Shown: positions 26,995 through 34,484 of the stretch, in pieces | Numbering within the stretch: the stretch's first letter is position 1 | Layout: each line of letters begins with the position of its first letter | Source: Phycisphaerae bacterium | GTDB taxonomy: Bacteria; Planctomycetota; Phycisphaerae; Sedimentisphaerales; Anaerohalosphaeraceae | Assembly (NCBI GenBank): GCA_014859965.1 | Contig: JACZKQ010000074.1 | Location: 62,001-126,000 of the forward strand | Length of the DNA: 64,000 nt | Direction: 5' to 3' | Translations under genes and position numbers: made by a program | The notes under the pieces: generated by a model | Databases searched by the model: none | Seen by the model: the letters and a program-made list of their open reading frames with translations, nothing else | What the model was told of the DNA's origin: nothing

Positions 26995-27332
26995 TACACA
27001 TCCCCTTTCCAAATACTTGTTTGAAGCACATTCCGGACCCGAGCATACCATCCTTCGTCGAGGGGTGGGTTGCTCTTTCAGGTTGGACCCCCGGTCCGTA
27101 CGGCTAAACCCCCATTCTGTATTTTACCCCCACAATCCTTGCGCATGTCGGCACAAAGGAAAGGCTTCTTAAATCAATTTGCACACGGTGGAGTGTGCAC
27201 CCAGGGGTATCGAGATTACACAGGCGCAGATGAAATGGCGGCACGGCGACCGGACAGGGAACAACGCAGGCGCAAACATTCTCCGCACCCATCCGCTTTG
27301 CGGCTCCCTGTGTCAGCAGGTCGGCTCAGTTG
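26995..27332. other. Intergenic stretch with a palindromic hairpin
   Basis: No convincing gene was seen in these 338 bases. A perfect 7-bp inverted repeat lies at 27180-27199 (TGCACAC and GTGTGCA, 6-base loop). On the minus strand it is followed by only a weak T-rich tail, so it could be a terminator for the small gene at 27333-27539 or an operator for the CBS gene. A GGACCcccGGTCC element lies near 27095. Confidence 0.4.
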
Positions 27333-27539
27333 TCACGTTCTGCCATTAATGCAGTAACGGCAGTCTTTATAGCCCGAAGCGTGGCCGTTTTCCAGCGATT
27401 GGAAAGAGAGGGCTTCTCCGGAGGCAACTGCCTGATCTATCCTGCATTGTTCCGTTTCAGAGTCCAGATCGTGAATTTGTTGTTTCTCCCTGTTGGCGCA
27501 GTAACGGGCGCCGTACAAGGGAGGACCAAGGCGTCTCAT
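27333..27539 (-). CDS. Small Cys-containing hypothetical protein
   Basis: This 68-residue protein starts at ATG 27539, preceded by AAAGGAGA ten bases upstream, a strong ribosome-binding site. It contains three notable blocks: an N-terminal GARYCANREKQQIHDLD, a central TEQCRIDQAVASGEALSF and a C-terminal GYKDCRYCINGRT. The four Cys (one, one, then Cys-x2-Cys) could bind a metal. The C-terminal motif resembles small planctomycete proteins I recall with a terminal Cys-x2-Cys-hydrophobic-Gly pattern, but I cannot name a family. A structured leader lies upstream (27,616-27,660). It is isolated in a long non-coding region. Confidence 0.6.
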   Translation of the reverse strand: MRRLGPPLYGARYCANREKQQIHDLDSETEQCRIDQAVASGEALSFQSLENGHASGYKDCRYCINGRT

Positions 27540-28167
27540 AGTGTTCCAATCTCCTTTGAACCATCTGGGTCTGTGCATTCACAGTTCAGCGTCGTTGCCT
27601 TGCTCCCGGCGAACTGCTATGGGGATGAACCCGCTTTTTGAAGGCGGGAACATCCCCAGCAGATCAACAGGCCAGAGTGACATCCATTTATCAATACAAA
27701 GACACAAGAGCTTCACAATTAAGGGGCGCACCCCCTCACAGAAATCCGTTTCCCTGCGCCCGGGTGGATTACCCATACAGGTACGTGCGATGAGTAAGCG
27801 AACGAGAACGGCAAGTGTTGATAGTCTTTTTTGGAATTTTTCAAAAATTTTTTAAAAGGGCGTTTTTACCGGCGCAAGCGGGGGTTTTCAGGGTCACCGA
27901 CGACTTATGCCTGGACCCTTCAGGCACAAATGTTAGCCGCGGACGCTTGCGGTTAACCTGCGTCCGGATATGACCGATGCTTACTACGTGAGGTCAGCGA
28001 ATGTCTCAAAACGGCTGCTCCGGCTTTAACGACCCGGAAATGCGCCAATTCGCTATGAGGACGGGTGATTATCAGCTTGCCGGCAGGGCCCACATGGTCG
28101 TCGGCAGGAGGGTGCCATCGCTCCGTTTTCACTCAACAAATGATGCATGGATATCCGGAGAATCGTG
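27540..28167. other. Non-coding region with several inverted repeats
   Basis: These 628 bases lie between two divergent genes. I see no convincing gene. They contain a strong hairpin at 27,616-27,660; a 7-bp stem of GGGCGCA/TGCGCCC at 27,724-27,761; a short AT palindrome AATTTTT-C-AAAAATT at 27,835-27,849; a TGCCTG/CAGGCA hairpin near 27,908; and a CGGACGC/GCGTCCG stem near 27,940-27,970. The last elements could belong to a structured leader of the dockerin gene. No known riboswitch was recognised. Confidence 0.4.
27616..27660. other. Strong long hairpin, candidate structured RNA
   Basis: GGGGATG at 27621-27627 pairs with CATCCCC at 27651-27657. Inside, CCCGC pairs with GCGGG, extended by weaker pairs, with small symmetric AA internal loops between the stems. 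Outer GCT/AGC pairing extends it. No T-run follows, so it is not a simple terminator. On the minus strand it lies about 80 bases upstream of the small gene starting at 27539. Confidence 0.5.
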
Positions 28168-29505
28168 ATGAAAAAGGAAGGTTTGATTCTGTGTTTACAT
28201 ATCGCTCTGGCTGCATTCGCCCAGGCCGCGGTGCGGGTCGATGTGTATGAAGCCGACGAGGTGACGCCGTTTGACGGCCGACCCTTGATGGTGGGCAGCG
28301 AACTGTCACTTGTAGTCTCCTCGGATACTGGTGATTACTGGGGCGGCGGGCTGTTTATCGAAGGCCCCGACAGGACGAGTGCCTGTCTGTCGGCCAGGGG
28401 CTTTAATCCCAACACGTGTGACTGGCAGGGGTCCCACTATGCCGGCGCCGGCGATGACGCGCGGGTTATCAGTTGGAAGGATCCGATTATGTGGGGATTT
28501 GATCTTTACACTTCGGATACCACTGGAATGCCGGGGAAATGGTTCGTGATCGATTATCGGGCCACCGGTAGCGGCGACCCAAATGTCCGGGTATACGACC
28601 ACGCCGCCAGCTTCAGCATCCCCAGCGATATAATCCAGTTTTCGCATGTGCCGTCACGTGATTTCAACGGCGACGGTGTGGTCAATATCGCCGATTACGT
28701 ACTGCTTGCCTCGCACTGGCTGGTTGAGGACTGCAATGAGCCAAATGGCTGCGGCCGGGTGGACATCAACGCCGACGGGTACGTAGACGTGCAGGACCTG
28801 GCGCTCTTTGCGGATTACTGGATGTGGGGAGTTCCACGGGTCCCGATCGTGGCGGTGGAGCCGGAGGTGACTTTCCGGATTGCCGATGCCATGGGATCAA
28901 ACGACATCAGTCTTTCCGCAGGTGAGTCCGTCATACTTTATGTCATGATGGAGAGAGGCGATGTTCCGATTCATACGTTCCACATTGAAGTGGATATAAA
29001 TAACCCGACCATCGGCAGTATTGACAATACGCCGTACGATCCTGATAACCCCCCGGGACCGGGCACTGCCCGTATTCTGGCGAAGCCGCGCGACGCGTTC
29101 TTTGATGATTGGGGTCCGGGTCAGTTGCAGCCCGAGGGAATCGCTTTAGGTGGAGTCTCTATTTCATCGCCCATGGCGGACGGGCCGCTGGCCAGCTTTG
29201 TCTACACCAGTCTGGGGACCGGTGACGTTACGCTGCACCTTTCAGATCTGCTTGCCGCTTACGATGTGCGGCTGGAGCCCATCGTGATCCACCAGGTAAC
29301 CCTTGGGATGCAGGCGACGTTCGGCGAAATGTCCTCCCCGGAGGAGAGCACACAGCCGTCTTCCGCTGCGCGTGATGTCGATGCGATCGTGGGTTTCCTG
29401 GAAGAGATATGGATCACTGAGGGCGATATGCAGGCCCTCGTCAGCGAAGCGGAGTGGCATACTTTTATCAACAGCGTCAAGCAGTCCGATTCACTTATCC
29501 AGTAG
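28168..29505 (+). CDS. Secreted dockerin-containing protein
   Basis: This 445-residue exported protein starts MKKEGLILCLHIALAAFAQA, a signal peptide. A first beta domain (about 20-155) follows. A type I dockerin pair then occurs at about residues 165-224: DFNGDGVVNIADYVLLASHWL and DINADGYVDVQDLALFADYWM, each with a calcium loop. The C-terminal half (about 240-390) has a cohesin-like beta pattern (VILYVMMERGDVPIHTFHIE), ending in a helical tail. ATG 28168 with GGAG seven bases upstream is preferred over ATG 28147. Dockerin repeats in planctomycetes need not mean cellulosomes. It precedes a C39-like peptidase gene by 34 bp. Confidence 0.8.
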   Translation: MKKEGLILCLHIALAAFAQAAVRVDVYEADEVTPFDGRPLMVGSELSLVVSSDTGDYWGGGLFIEGPDRTSACLSARGFNPNTCDWQGSHYAGAGDDARVISWKDPIMWGFDLYTSDTTGMPGKWFVIDYRATGSGDPNVRVYDHAASFSIPSDIIQFSHVPSRDFNGDGVVNIADYVLLASHWLVEDCNEPNGCGRVDINADGYVDVQDLALFADYWMWGVPRVPIVAVEPEVTFRIADAMGSNDISLSAGESVILYVMMERGDVPIHTFHIEVDINNPTIGSIDNTPYDPDNPPGPGTARILAKPRDAFFDDWGPGQLQPEGIALGGVSISSPMADGPLASFVYTSLGTGDVTLHLSDLLAAYDVRLEPIVIHQVTLGMQATFGEMSSPEESTQPSSAARDVDAIVGFLEEIWITEGDMQALVSEAEWHTFINSVKQSDSLIQ

Positions 29506-29539
29506 AGCGGCAGAACCGGGCGTGAGCAGGGAGACCACC

Positions 29540-31213
29540 ATGCAGAAGAAATGTATTTTTTTGGCAGTAGTTGTGTTGAGTACTGTTTACGGCCGGGCCG
29601 CCGGGCAGAGGCCGCTGGATCGCGCGGAAATACTGGACCTTTTGAAGGTTTTGACCGATGAGCCCCGGGATACGTGGATTTCATCCGGAGTGGTCCATGC
29701 AACGCGTCTCGAATACAGGGCTGCAACGGATCAAATTACGGAGTCCACAGTCCAGATCCGCTACGACGGCCACAAGTTCTACTGGGAAATCGATACCGAT
29801 TCAGCCAGTTTGCCGCCGGATGCGCAGCAGGGCAACCCGCGTGAGGTCGCTGACATGAAGTTGAACGCTCGTCGCGTCTTCGCGTGGGACGGCCAGCGGT
29901 ACACCGTTTACTCCAAGCAGGGCAATAATGCGATTGTCTTTGAGGACACCAGCACGATTCCCGTTGTGGTGAACGGTCCCTTGACCGCCGGCGTGATTCC
30001 ATGGGGATATGGGAAATTCACGTATGATGTGCTGTCCGGTGCGGAAGTGTCCGGAATTGAAACACAGCGGGAAGGGTTGACAATAATTGAGCTGACGGTC
30101 CGTATGACCGAGACGTTGCAGATGACGTGCGTCCTGGATCGCGACAAAGATTACGCGGTGCTGTCGAATACGGTGCGCAATGAGGGCCGGTCGCTGACCG
30201 TGAGGACGTATGACGGATACCGCCGGGTGGGCGGCCGGTGGGTGCCCCAGGTCGTGCAGATCGAGACCTTCGACGACAGCGGCAAACCGGCCCGGCTAAC
30301 GTCATACGATCACTGGAACCTGACACGTGTCAGCACGCAGATCCCCACGTCGAATCCCTTCGTCGTAGACATGGAGCCGGAAGCGTTTATCGAAGAGTAC
30401 ACGAAACTGTCGAAGAAACCGCTGACGTATTATCAACGTGAGCACGCGGACACGGAGTCACTGCGCCGAATGCGGCTGGAAATCATTGCGGCCGGGAAAG
30501 GGCGTAACGCTAACTGTGGAACGATAACCACACAATATGTCATGTCGCGTTGGAAGAAAAATATCACGCAGCAGCAGAGAACCTTGCTGGGCGAAAGCGA
30601 TGACGCAAGCACAAGTCTTTACACTATAAAACAGGTGCTGGCCGGTGCGGGGCTCAACTGCAGGGCAGTCAAAACGGACATAGATACTCTGCGTACACTG
30701 AGGAATTGTTCGGTGATTCTGCATCTGCCGGGCCGAAACCATTTTGTTGTGCTCGATCACATTGACGACCAGCGGGTATGGTTGGTTGATCTGGACCATG
30801 ACCGATTCTATTTTCCAGTGGGAATTGACCTGTTTACGCTCGACTGGCCGAGCGGTACGGCACTGCTGGTGTCGGCAGAACCGCTGCCGTTGTCAGCCGA
30901 ATCCGTGGAGATTCCGGATGCGCGGCTTAGGAAACTTGTGGGAGCCGACAGCCTTGGCACCTACTCGTGTACGCAGCGGATACAAGAATACCGCATTGTC
31001 TATTGCAGCCCCGCTATTGGCATGGTTTGTGCCGGCAGATATCGCGTTTACCCTGAGCTGTTCGGATGTGAATTAAGCGAAGGCGGCGGCGGTTGCGCCG
31101 GCGGCCCCGTGGCAGGTTCTTGGTACTTGGACTGTATCGAAAAGCCGTCCGACCCCGGCGAATGCGGCGTGACCGGTGAGTGGATTGTTCTTTACATTCA
31201 TGCATGTAAGTAG
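29540..31213 (+). CDS. Secreted C39-like cysteine peptidase with Cys-rich tail
   Basis: This 557-residue exported protein has a signal peptide (MQKKCIFLAVVVLSTVYGRA) and a beta-rich N-terminal region to about residue 300. A C39-type peptidase domain follows with the catalytic Cys in NANCGTITTQYV, His in NHFVVLDHID and an acidic residue in VWLVDLDHD. C39 domains usually cleave double-glycine leaders and are fused to ABC exporters; no ATPase or membrane domain is fused here. The last about 80 residues contain eight Cys. ATG 29540 has GGGAG upstream. It lies between the dockerin gene and a prepilin-like gene. Confidence 0.72.
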   Translation: MQKKCIFLAVVVLSTVYGRAAGQRPLDRAEILDLLKVLTDEPRDTWISSGVVHATRLEYRAATDQITESTVQIRYDGHKFYWEIDTDSASLPPDAQQGNPREVADMKLNARRVFAWDGQRYTVYSKQGNNAIVFEDTSTIPVVVNGPLTAGVIPWGYGKFTYDVLSGAEVSGIETQREGLTIIELTVRMTETLQMTCVLDRDKDYAVLSNTVRNEGRSLTVRTYDGYRRVGGRWVPQVVQIETFDDSGKPARLTSYDHWNLTRVSTQIPTSNPFVVDMEPEAFIEEYTKLSKKPLTYYQREHADTESLRRMRLEIIAAGKGRNANCGTITTQYVMSRWKKNITQQQRTLLGESDDASTSLYTIKQVLAGAGLNCRAVKTDIDTLRTLRNCSVILHLPGRNHFVVLDHIDDQRVWLVDLDHDRFYFPVGIDLFTLDWPSGTALLVSAEPLPLSAESVEIPDARLRKLVGADSLGTYSCTQRIQEYRIVYCSPAIGMVCAGRYRVYPELFGCELSEGGGGCAGGPVAGSWYLDCIEKPSDPGECGVTGEWIVLYIHACK

Positions 31214-31282
31214 CTGGCAACTGCGGCGACATGCCTGATTGTGCGGTTGCAACGCAGTGTTTATAGCAGTAGAATGGTGATC

Positions 31283-32077
31283 ATGAATCGCCATGGTTTT
31301 TCGCTGATAGAACTGCTTGTCGTCATTGCCGTTATCTCTTTGCTGATGGGGGCCTTGTCGCCTGGTTTGTGGTCTGCCAGACAGCAGGCGCAGGCTGTTT
31401 GGTGTACCTCCAATATGAAGCAGTTAAGCCTGGCCCTGATGATTTATGAGGAGGCGAATGGGAGGTTTCCCTACGCGTTTGATGACAGGATGGGGCAACC
31501 CATTCCAAACGGCGGGCATCCCGGCGATCCCCTGTGCGACAACATGGGGATATGGTGGTTGCATCAGCTCGAGGGTTTCATCGATGCCATTCTCGACAGG
31601 AATTCCCCGGCTTGGTGTGCGGCCCGCAAAGTCAAGGACCGCGGATTAGAGGCCAATATCCTCCTCGGCAACTATGGTGTCAATCGGGTGATATTGACGG
31701 ATTTGCAGGGCCCAGCGGGAGGTGAGTTTGTGGGTCCGCCATTAGGGCTGAAGCAGATCCGTCATCCCTCGGCCGTGCTGTTAATCACCGACAGCGGCTA
31801 CAGTCAGATAAGCTGGTATGGGGCGGCCGACAACGTCGTGCAGCGTTTTGAGAATGTAAACCGGGAACAGGCGTTCTATGTGCCCGGGCTTTCCATTAAC
31901 GTCAATCGTACATTCCCGCCGCTGTTTCACGAGGATGCTGTGAAAGGCCGGCACCCGAGAAGGACCATTAATGTGACCTATGCCGATGGCCACGTTAACC
32001 GCGCCAAAGCTGAGAGTCTGCTTGTGGAAGAAATCGGAGGGGGTTGGGCGAATCGTTCGCCCCTTTGGGTGCCGTAA
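31283..32077 (+). CDS. Prepilin-like protein with H-X9-DG-type C-terminus (DUF1559-like)
   Basis: This 264-residue protein has a canonical prepilin cleavage site HG/FSLIELLVVIAVISLL with Glu at +5 and a long hydrophobic helix. The body contains WCTSNMKQLSLALMIYEEANG, and the C-terminus has HPRRTINVTYADGHVNRAKAE, fitting the H-X9-DG signature of planctomycete prepilin-like proteins. ATG 31283 (MNRHGF) is chosen; ATG 31274 and a GTG at 31241 are alternatives. Processing would use a prepilin peptidase not seen in this window. It ends 10 bp from the convergent anti-sigma gene. Confidence 0.87.
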   Translation: MNRHGFSLIELLVVIAVISLLMGALSPGLWSARQQAQAVWCTSNMKQLSLALMIYEEANGRFPYAFDDRMGQPIPNGGHPGDPLCDNMGIWWLHQLEGFIDAILDRNSPAWCAARKVKDRGLEANILLGNYGVNRVILTDLQGPAGGEFVGPPLGLKQIRHPSAVLLITDSGYSQISWYGAADNVVQRFENVNREQAFYVPGLSINVNRTFPPLFHEDAVKGRHPRRTINVTYADGHVNRAKAESLLVEEIGGGWANRSPLWVP

Positions 32078-32087
32078 GTCAGGATAT

Positions 32088-33746
32088 TTACAGGCCGAGC
32101 TGCTTGATTAAGGCCTGAATGGACGCGCCGTCGGGATAGGCGATTTCCATATACTGGTTTAACGTGTACTCTGCTGTCGAGTCCATCCTGCTGTAGGATT
32201 CCGTTCTGAGGGGTCGTTTGGTATCGGGGTGCACATAGCCGCGCCATTTGCAGTAAACCGGTTCGCCGCCCAATGCCTTGTCTGTCCAGGTCATTTCATA
32301 GATGTGCGTTCCTTGCAGACCTGCATCGGTGACATCGTCCTCAAGGCGGTGCCATGTTGCGCCCTCAGGCGCGTTGGACAGTTTCGCGAAAGGCAGAATG
32401 TCCATGGGACCCGTCAGCGTTCCTGCCACTTTTGCAATCGTTTCACTATCCAGAGGGATTGTCTGATGTTGTCCCGTCGTGGCGTTGGCAAGTTTCCGGG
32501 CATTTGCCTCAAGATCCCAAAGATCGTACTGGTCTCCTGTTCTATACAGTTTAAGCTTCGGGTTCTGGCATATCCATATTTCCTGGAGGGCTTCTGCCCG
32601 CTGCCCGTCAAAGCGCTTGATGTGCATCGTATTAACGGCGGCCAGTTCCGCGTAGACACGGCTCAAATCCGTTGCTTTGACACTTGTGCCGTAAAGCAGG
32701 AGCACGGCCGCCAGAAAAACCGCAGCGGCGGCGGCGGCCGGTTTCAGGAACGGCCTTAAATGCGGATATAACCGTGCCGTTTGGCGACATGATTTTTCTG
32801 ATTCGAGCGGCTGGCTGTGGTCGGCAGACGGGGCGTGCTCAGGCCGTACACTTGCTGTGATATGGCTGGCGACCGCCGTCCGGGCCCGCGACAGATCGGC
32901 CATCGTGAAGCAGGTCACAATGCCGGATGCAGGACGCTCCATGATATGGGTGAGAGCGCCAAGCAGTGCCTGCAATTTGTCCATGCATCGACGACACGAG
33001 GACACATGCGCGAGCAGCGATGGGGACCATTCGGTGGGGGGCTCCGCAGCCGGGTCGACGCCATAGGGGAGACAGAGATCAAAGAGATGCCCGCAGGTGA
33101 CATCCTCGCATGAGCAGCCGTTGCGAGTGTGCTGCGGTTGAAGGCTCTTGGCAAGGGTCCAGCGTTCCTGCACCAGCAGGCGGCGGCAATCTGCACAGAG
33201 GCAGATATGCTTCAATACCGCCGGGGCGATGTCCTGGAAGTTTATTGCTGCTACGGAGCCTATGGCCTTGCGCGCCGTCCGGCATGTTTCATGGTCATGA
33301 CGCCCGGTTTCAGCCAGCATCTGACCCAGAAGGCAGTGCTGTCGGTGCGTCAGATGCAGGCGGCGGAGGGTCTCAATGTCGTCGGCGCATGCGGGGCATT
33401 CACGAATGTGCTCAGTGACGGGGGTGGGGCCCGGCACCTCGAACAGCAGATCGACCATGGGCGCAAGAAATGGCTTGACGGCATTGCAGTCGACACTACG
33501 GCCAAGAAGGGCCATGTGGAGTTCGAGATTTGCCGTAGAGGCGGCAACATCGACGTCGCACCGACAGGCGCCGGCCTGGTGATCCATGGCGGCGTTCAGA
33601 CGGTCGACTTCGGTCTTGCACCGGTCGCACCGGCCGATGTGATGCCATATGTTTTCCGGGATGTCGGTCGTCCTGTACCCGCAGAGAAAGTCATAGTAGT
33701 ACGGCCGGGCCATGTTGCAGGTCACCACGTGATCAGATATCTTCAT
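32088..33746 (-). CDS. Membrane anti-sigma factor with four tandem zinc-finger-like motifs
   Basis: This 552-residue protein probably sequesters the adjacent ECF sigma factor. Its cytoplasmic half has four His-x3-Cys-x2-Cys motifs (HIGRCDRC near residue 36, HIRECPAC, HICLCADC, HVSSCRRC), each preceded by another Cys 20-40 residues earlier. This is the zinc-binding anti-sigma (ZAS) pattern, four times over. A membrane helix lies at about residues 330-352 (AAAAAAVFLAAVLLLYG). The periplasmic part has about 200 residues, including WDLEANARKLANA and WRGYVHPDTKRPLRTESY. GGAGGGG precedes the ATG. The gene start overlaps the sigma gene end by 14 bp. Function is inferred from arrangement. Confidence 0.82.
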   Translation of the reverse strand: MKISDHVVTCNMARPYYYDFLCGYRTTDIPENIWHHIGRCDRCKTEVDRLNAAMDHQAGACRCDVDVAASTANLELHMALLGRSVDCNAVKPFLAPMVDLLFEVPGPTPVTEHIRECPACADDIETLRRLHLTHRQHCLLGQMLAETGRHDHETCRTARKAIGSVAAINFQDIAPAVLKHICLCADCRRLLVQERWTLAKSLQPQHTRNGCSCEDVTCGHLFDLCLPYGVDPAAEPPTEWSPSLLAHVSSCRRCMDKLQALLGALTHIMERPASGIVTCFTMADLSRARTAVASHITASVRPEHAPSADHSQPLESEKSCRQTARLYPHLRPFLKPAAAAAAVFLAAVLLLYGTSVKATDLSRVYAELAAVNTMHIKRFDGQRAEALQEIWICQNPKLKLYRTGDQYDLWDLEANARKLANATTGQHQTIPLDSETIAKVAGTLTGPMDILPFAKLSNAPEGATWHRLEDDVTDAGLQGTHIYEMTWTDKALGGEPVYCKWRGYVHPDTKRPLRTESYSRMDSTAEYTLNQYMEIAYPDGASIQALIKQLGL

Positions 33747-34338
33747 CGTTGTACCCCTCCCCATCGGACACCAACTGTCTTAATTTCTCGAGTCCAACCG
33801 ACACATACCGGCTCAACGTTTTTGGTTTAATGTTCATCCTTCTGGCCGCTTCCGCATTTGTATAATTGTCTCGGAAACGGAGAGTGACCGCCTCGGCTTC
33901 CGTGCGGCTCAGCCGGGTTTCTATAAGGTCAAAGAGTTTCAGGGCTTGCTCCCTGTCCATGACTACTGTGTCGGGTGTGTCCGGCAGAACTCCGGTGCGC
34001 GAGTAGATTCCGCAGGTCTCGATCGCGGAGCGATGGACCATGAGACGCCTGCGGTAATCCACTATATCGTTTACGATAGCCCTGTAGAGATAGCTTCTGA
34101 TATTGGTCACATACGAGGGAATTGGGTTTGCTACGATGGATAGAAAAAAGTCGTGGTAGAAATCGTGCGCCTCGTGGGCATCTTTGACATTCAATCGAAT
34201 AACTGTGCGGATGAACTCGCCATATTCGAGAAATATCTCTGCAGCGGCCTTAACGCTGTGGCGTATTCTTCGTTTTACCGGCAGGGCCTGCGACAAGGCG
34301 AACATCTCCTGGTACCTACGGTCTGCCGCACGTTTCAA
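33733..34338 (-). CDS. ECF-type RNA polymerase sigma factor
   Basis: This 201-residue sigma factor has region 2 (IRTVIRLNVKDAHEAHDFYH; SYLYRAIVNDIVDYRRR) and region 4 (LSRTEAEAVTLRFRDNYTNA, then EAARRMNIKPKTLSRYVSVG) with a helix-turn-helix. It is cotranscribed with the overlapping anti-sigma gene. The start is uncertain: TTG 34338 is used here, while ATG 34305 has AGGAG directly adjacent, which is poorly spaced. A consensus promoter lies at 34367-34394. It is divergent from the giant gene. Confidence 0.85.
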   Translation of the reverse strand: MKRAADRRYQEMFALSQALPVKRRIRHSVKAAAEIFLEYGEFIRTVIRLNVKDAHEAHDFYHDFFLSIVANPIPSYVTNIRSYLYRAIVNDIVDYRRRLMVHRSAIETCGIYSRTGVLPDTPDTVVMDREQALKLFDLIETRLSRTEAEAVTLRFRDNYTNAEAARRMNIKPKTLSRYVSVGLEKLRQLVSDGEGYNDEDI

Positions 34339-34366
34339 ACGCGTCGGCCGGGGCCTTCAATTTGGA

Positions 34367-34394
34367 ATTATACCGTTTGTGAACTGCTTGACAA
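34367..34394 (-). promoter_or_regulatory. Sigma70-like promoter for sigma/anti-sigma operon
   Basis: On the minus strand TTGTCA (34394-34389) and TATAAT (34372-34367) are spaced by 16 bp. The -10 is perfect. Predicted start near 34360, about 22 bases before the TTG start. Confidence 0.65.
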
Positions 34395-34484
34395 GATCGT
34401 CTTTGAAGAAAAATTCTGTGAGGCAGTCGCGGGTGACTCCCGCTCATCCTGATGTAAGTTTTCGCGAAGACCCGGAAAAATCGC

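Follow-up and report, generated by a model that had tools for sequence, protein, structure and literature searches.

The window analysed here is a 64,000-nucleotide stretch of a Phycisphaerae bacterium contig (Planctomycetota; Sedimentisphaerales; JACZKQ010000074.1). Near its middle, a minus-strand open reading frame with an ATG at 33746 and its stop codon at 32088-32090 encodes a 552-residue protein carrying four ZAS-like modules, the same coordinates at which a first-pass annotation had placed an anti-sigma factor. The gene lies between an ECF sigma factor gene and three convergent genes, and the protein belongs to a family of 81 homologues. The features of the locus, in order of coordinate, are as follows:

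28147-29505, plus strand: gene for a secreted protein with a dockerin domain (Dockerin_1, E 6e-8)
29501-31213, plus strand: C39-type cysteine peptidase gene
31241-32077, plus strand: pseudopilin-like gene (N_methyl, DUF1559)
32088-33746, minus strand: anti-sigma factor gene, 552 aa, four ZAS-like modules
32091-32684, minus strand: C-terminal domain, presumably extracytoplasmic, aa 355-552
32679-32750, minus strand: single predicted transmembrane segment, aa 333-356 (Kyte-Doolittle 2.2)
32907-32957, minus strand: conserved juxtamembrane segment, aa 264-280 (...IxxRxxSGxxT)
32943-33125, minus strand: module 4, aa 208-268; ligands C213, H247, C251 and C254; longer first loop
33141-33299, minus strand: module 3, aa 150-202; ligands C155, H180, C184 and C187
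33297-33503, minus strand: module 2, aa 82-150; ligands C87, H113, C117 and C120
33573-33734, minus strand: module 1, aa 5-58; ligands C10, H36, C40 and C43; RsrA-like spacing
33733-34338, minus strand: cognate ECF sigma gene (TIGR02937, E 5e-15), with a TTG start as listed

The sigma gene overlaps the start of the anti-sigma gene by 14 bp, and a sigma-70-like promoter (TTGTCA-N16-TATAAT, 34362-34395, minus strand) can be seen by eye just upstream of it. Divergent from the sigma gene is an open reading frame of more than 9,800 codons (34561-63999, plus strand) that continues past the window end and whose place beside the sigma gene is not conserved in relatives. Its N-terminus carries the segment VEQLEDRLLLS, which is typical of the very large surface proteins of planctomycetes. 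Between a CBS-domain-like gene and the dockerin gene is a gap of about 1.1 kb (27051-28147); neither the gap nor any other part of the window matched Rfam, and no match to PHROGs was obtained.

The four ligand sets all have the form C-x(n)-H-x3-C-x2-C and all lie N-terminal to the hydrophobic segment (residues ~333-356), so that the first-pass description of an upstream cysteine for each motif (C10, C87, C155 and C213) ahead of the membrane helix is borne out. The motif letters are HIGRCDRC (H36), HIRECPAC (H113), HICLCADC (H180) and HVSSCRRC (H247), and the step from the first cysteine to the histidine is 26, 26, 25 and 34 residues in modules 1 to 4, respectively; module 4 has the additional signature C[ED]xV...FDY. 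When the 335-residue cytoplasmic part was shuffled 20,000 times, none of the shuffles gave four motifs and the maximum was three. Profiles built for each module from up to 81 sequences were compared pairwise by hhalign, giving E values of 3e-11 (modules 1 and 2), 5e-10 (modules 1 and 3), 1e-7 (modules 1 and 4) and 5e-7 (modules 2 and 3). Column-shuffled decoys did no better than E 0.0026 (0.004 for the module 1-2 pair). The module 2-4 and 3-4 comparisons were weaker than those of the other pairs, and their values are not decisive alone because certain unrelated segments used as controls scored up to 37% probability and E 3.5e-4. By these profile comparisons, modules 1 to 3 are mutually homologous and module 4 is related to them, with a more distant first cysteine.

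The single hydrophobic segment separates the N-terminal anti-sigma part from the C-terminal domain, which by hydropathy is the layout of RsiW and RseA; exactly one such segment is predicted in 79 of the 81 family members. The juxtamembrane segment is common to two- and four-module members, with R271 kept in 69, S274 in 77 and T278 in 79 of the 81. The C-terminal domain of about 200 residues is conserved in the family, and searches with the window protein and its relatives gave no reliable family match for it; it also did not match the C39 protein by profile. A LolA-like identity was considered for this domain and appeared just as isolated weak LolA_like matches in single relatives. AF2 run on the single sequence gave a pLDDT of 38 for the cytoplasmic part and 37 for the C-terminal domain alone, too low for a usable model.

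ZAS proteins are defined by H-x3-C-x2-C with a fourth ligand, Cys or His, 23-26 residues N-terminal to it, and their genes are typically placed after the gene for their ECF sigma factor (PMC4960319). The core motif occurs four times in the window protein and in modules 1 and 2 of all 81 members, and the fourth ligand falls within the defined distance in modules 1 to 3 and outside it in module 4. An ECF sigma gene immediately precedes the anti-sigma gene in 78 of the 81 loci, and the two often overlap. Pfam zf-HC2 (PF13490) matched neither the window protein nor its isolated modules, and matched 14 of 24 and 11 of 40 relatives (best E 1e-8). When a profile of modules 1 and 2 was searched against a sample of 392 genomes from the phylum, ordinary ZAS proteins with a single module (C-x-LLxxYLDGEL-x-HLxxCxxC) were among its hits, and each motif-bearing open reading frame in the loci fetched from outside the order had exactly one motif. 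If the protein were instead a zinc-finger regulator tethered to the membrane, with DNA or some other partner as its target, the missing zf-HC2 match in the window modules would be accounted for, and zinc fingers of other kinds do bind DNA; this is nonetheless scarcely credible given the nearly constant place after an ECF sigma gene, the fit of ligand spacing and module profile to ZAS, and the zf-HC2 matches in relatives. The protein is most likely an anti-sigma factor that is ordinary in kind and unusual in architecture, real and conserved, with a core that is more than decoration. The first-pass reading, four ZAS-like motifs in tandem in an anti-sigma factor, is supported by its sequence, module homology, upstream ECF genes and order-wide conservation. 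No tandem ZAS anti-sigma factor was found in the literature searched, and the available portion of the ASDI survey (PMC7406223) mentions no tandem two-to-four-module arrays.

Members of the tandem family occur in 88 of the order's 161 genomes and in 47 of its 84 genera; within the 392-genome phylum sample, proteins with at least two modules were found solely in this order. The ligands are conserved in relatives whose sequences are 21-34% identical overall to that of the window protein. The H/C/C ligands of module 1 are kept in 81/81 members and its first cysteine in 79 of 80 aligned rows, with histidine replacing it in one member (HHCC). Module 2 keeps its full set of four ligands in every member (81/81). 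Module 3 is the module most often lost or degraded. Four modules are present in 43 of the 81 members and two in 30; the other 8 have module 4 but no intact module 3. The two-module state was mapped on a quick tree made with modules 3 and 4 and the sigma factor left out, and required nine changes; two- and four-module sisters occur inside genera g47, g70 and g73. Such change counts alone do not separate gain from loss, and repeated loss or degradation of modules 3 and 4 as a cassette, even within genera, is the simpler reading of the sequences because these modules are homologous wherever present. Sequence comparison establishes the four ligand sets, the homology of the modules, conservation across the order, linkage to an ECF gene and the recurrent switching of modules 3 and 4, most simply read as loss.

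This pattern bears on how much of the array works. If only module 1, or modules 1 and 2, were the working anti-sigma domain and modules 3 and 4 were spacers or decoration without their own function, the absence of the latter from 30 members, their switching within three genera, the ligand decay in module 3 and the non-canonical spacing of module 4 would be expected. Against this, the ligands are strongly kept where the modules are present: in module 4, the histidine in 51/52, the two following cysteines in 52/52 and 49/52 and the first cysteine in 48/51 (48-52 of up to 52 overall), and in module 3 the H/C/C set in 42-43 of 45-46. In proteins this diverged, such retention argues for selection, and we regard the spacer explanation as rather unlikely.

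The integration of redox or zinc signals, also raised by the first-pass annotation, is possible because the modules are of the CHCC type. In its full form, as a sensor whose modules form disulfides and shed zinc stepwise to grade a thiol-stress response, as RsrA does with one site, it draws on the fact that all four modules are CHCC, a type open to oxidative release (PMC4960319), on the retention of H/C/C in modules 1 and 2 throughout the family, and on the many extra cysteines of the window protein. The several further cytoplasmic cysteines are, however, mostly not conserved among the 81 members, module 3 ligands are lost in several of them, one member is HHCC in module 1, and the conserved membrane segment and external domain point to a signal from outside; we consider such a sensor improbable.

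The sigma factor has SigW (5wuq, E 3e-8) as the best solved relative of its profile. Each locus contains one sigma gene. In the 15 genomes searched, the cognate sigma scores 117-246 bits and the next ECF paralogue about 50-63, a gap seen with two- and four-module anti-sigma factors alike; in the window's own genome the values are 210 and 56 bits. Fourteen of the 15 genomes have a single cognate sigma, and the exception (G121) has two, in two complete loci. The first-pass suggestion that the protein binds several sigma factors is unsupported because there is one cognate sigma per locus and the nearest paralogues are remote. A hub of this kind, in which each module sequesters a different ECF sigma and one sensor frees several together, would give a use to four related modules with diverged surfaces and to the several remote ECF paralogues in the genome. 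It is very improbable in view of the single sigma gene, the score gap in both kinds of genome, and the retention of the cognate sigma where modules 3 and 4 are lost.

On the downstream side of the anti-sigma gene, and convergent with it, lies the three-gene cassette (28147-32077, plus strand), of which the dockerin gene is the first gene. Its gene order is kept across loci, with a similar dockerin open reading frame at 47-48, the C39 peptidase gene at 58 and a similar pseudopilin open reading frame nearby at 69-70 of the 81 loci; contig ends account for many of the loci without cassette genes. The catalytic Cys and His of the C39 protein are each kept in 56/56 sequences and the Asp in 55/56. 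The C-terminal part of the C39 protein is a Cys-rich tail of about 80 residues, possibly disulfide-bonded.

An unsupervised promoter search recovered no motif. The motif described here was first spotted by eye in genus g2, where [AT]ATCAA[CT]-N16/17-CG[CGA]CT[TA] lies upstream of both the sigma gene and the cassette, and was then tested by hold-out. A PWM trained solely on sites upstream of sigma and dockerin genes in families f1 and f2 recovers a site in 11 of the 29 regions upstream of C39 genes in family f7, versus an average of 0.27 (maximum 1) in shuffles and 0 on the reverse strand. The motif is missing from about two thirds of the upstream regions in relatives. The window itself has no convincing ECF-type site, so regulation of the cassette by the sigma in the window's genome is suggested by analogy with relatives. 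Genome scans in g2 give few sites, including those at the sigma gene, the cassette, a divergent secreted protein and flgB-flgC, and in three of six scanned genomes (G001, G015 and G049) the total motif count shows no excess over the control pattern. In four g2 genomes (L202-L205) the motif also stands ahead of the flagellar operon flgB-flgC; among the genomes scanned this site is limited to genus g2, the other genera giving no convincing instance. Genes for large secreted proteins in g2 genomes (L206 and L207) are preceded by the motif as well and are possible further regulon members. The -35 AAC and -10 CG (CGxC) elements and their spacing resemble those of known ECF promoters, and we infer that it is owned by this ECF sigma. 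FliA is still in contention as its owner, since FliA-type sigmas are present in all 11 genomes checked, although the elements and spacing look ECF-like to us. Comparison among relatives establishes both the conserved convergent cassette and a shared motif of ECF type.

Taken with its neighbours, the protein is probably a membrane-anchored class I ZAS anti-sigma factor whose four-module array, with modules 1 and 2 as core and modules 3 and 4 optional, clamps the sigma factor until regulated release. Class I domains consist of a three-helix bundle plus helix 4. Helix 1 contacts sigma-4 and helix 4 contacts sigma-2 (PMC7406223). Each intact module would bind one zinc, and the array would sequester the adjacent ECF sigma. 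Module 1 has the strongest helix-1-like signature (YYYDYL), and its first helix may sit on sigma-4; the juxtamembrane segment is a candidate sigma-2-binding helix, and modules 2 to 4 would lengthen the clamp. Distance-correlation (mirror-tree) tests singled out no sigma-contacting module. The sigma would then be released by a signal at the extracytoplasmic domain. Regulated proteolysis of the RsiW kind, triggered from outside, is the most likely route, given that the membrane segment and external domain are conserved; no site-1- or site-2-type protease was identified in the locus. The freed sigma would transcribe its own operon and the dockerin/C39/pseudopilin cassette. More tentatively, this may be an order-wide, usually single-copy ECF system in which a multi-zinc clamp of two to four modules, tuned by repeated in-frame cassette loss, controls a C39-peptidase, pseudopilin and dockerin surface-protein cassette.

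Known ZAS proteins have one zinc module, whereas this family has a strict two-module core with two more modules gained or lost within genera, and it offers a natural experiment on anti-sigma/sigma binding and the role of zinc in it. Its conserved cassette and promoter motif also supply an initial regulon, open to testing, for a sigma factor of this order that is otherwise uncharacterised. RsrA of Streptomyces coelicolor, a CHCC-type ZAS protein with ligands C11-H37-C41-C44 (PMC4960319), has the spacing of modules 1 and 2, but is a soluble protein of 105 residues with one module, in contrast to the four modules, predicted membrane segment and C-terminal domain found here. RsiW, the partner of SigW in Bacillus subtilis, is the best solved match of the two-module profile, a weak one (E 0.26), and like the window protein (by prediction) is membrane-anchored with a cytoplasmic ZAS domain and an ECF partner; it has one HHCC module, and its regulated proteolysis has been shown while that of the window protein is assumed. 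Proteins of the zf-HC2/ASDI group share with the window protein an H-x3-C-x2-C motif and upstream Cys encoded beside an ECF sigma gene, and their single-module members occur across the phylum, whereas two to four modules in tandem were not found outside this order.
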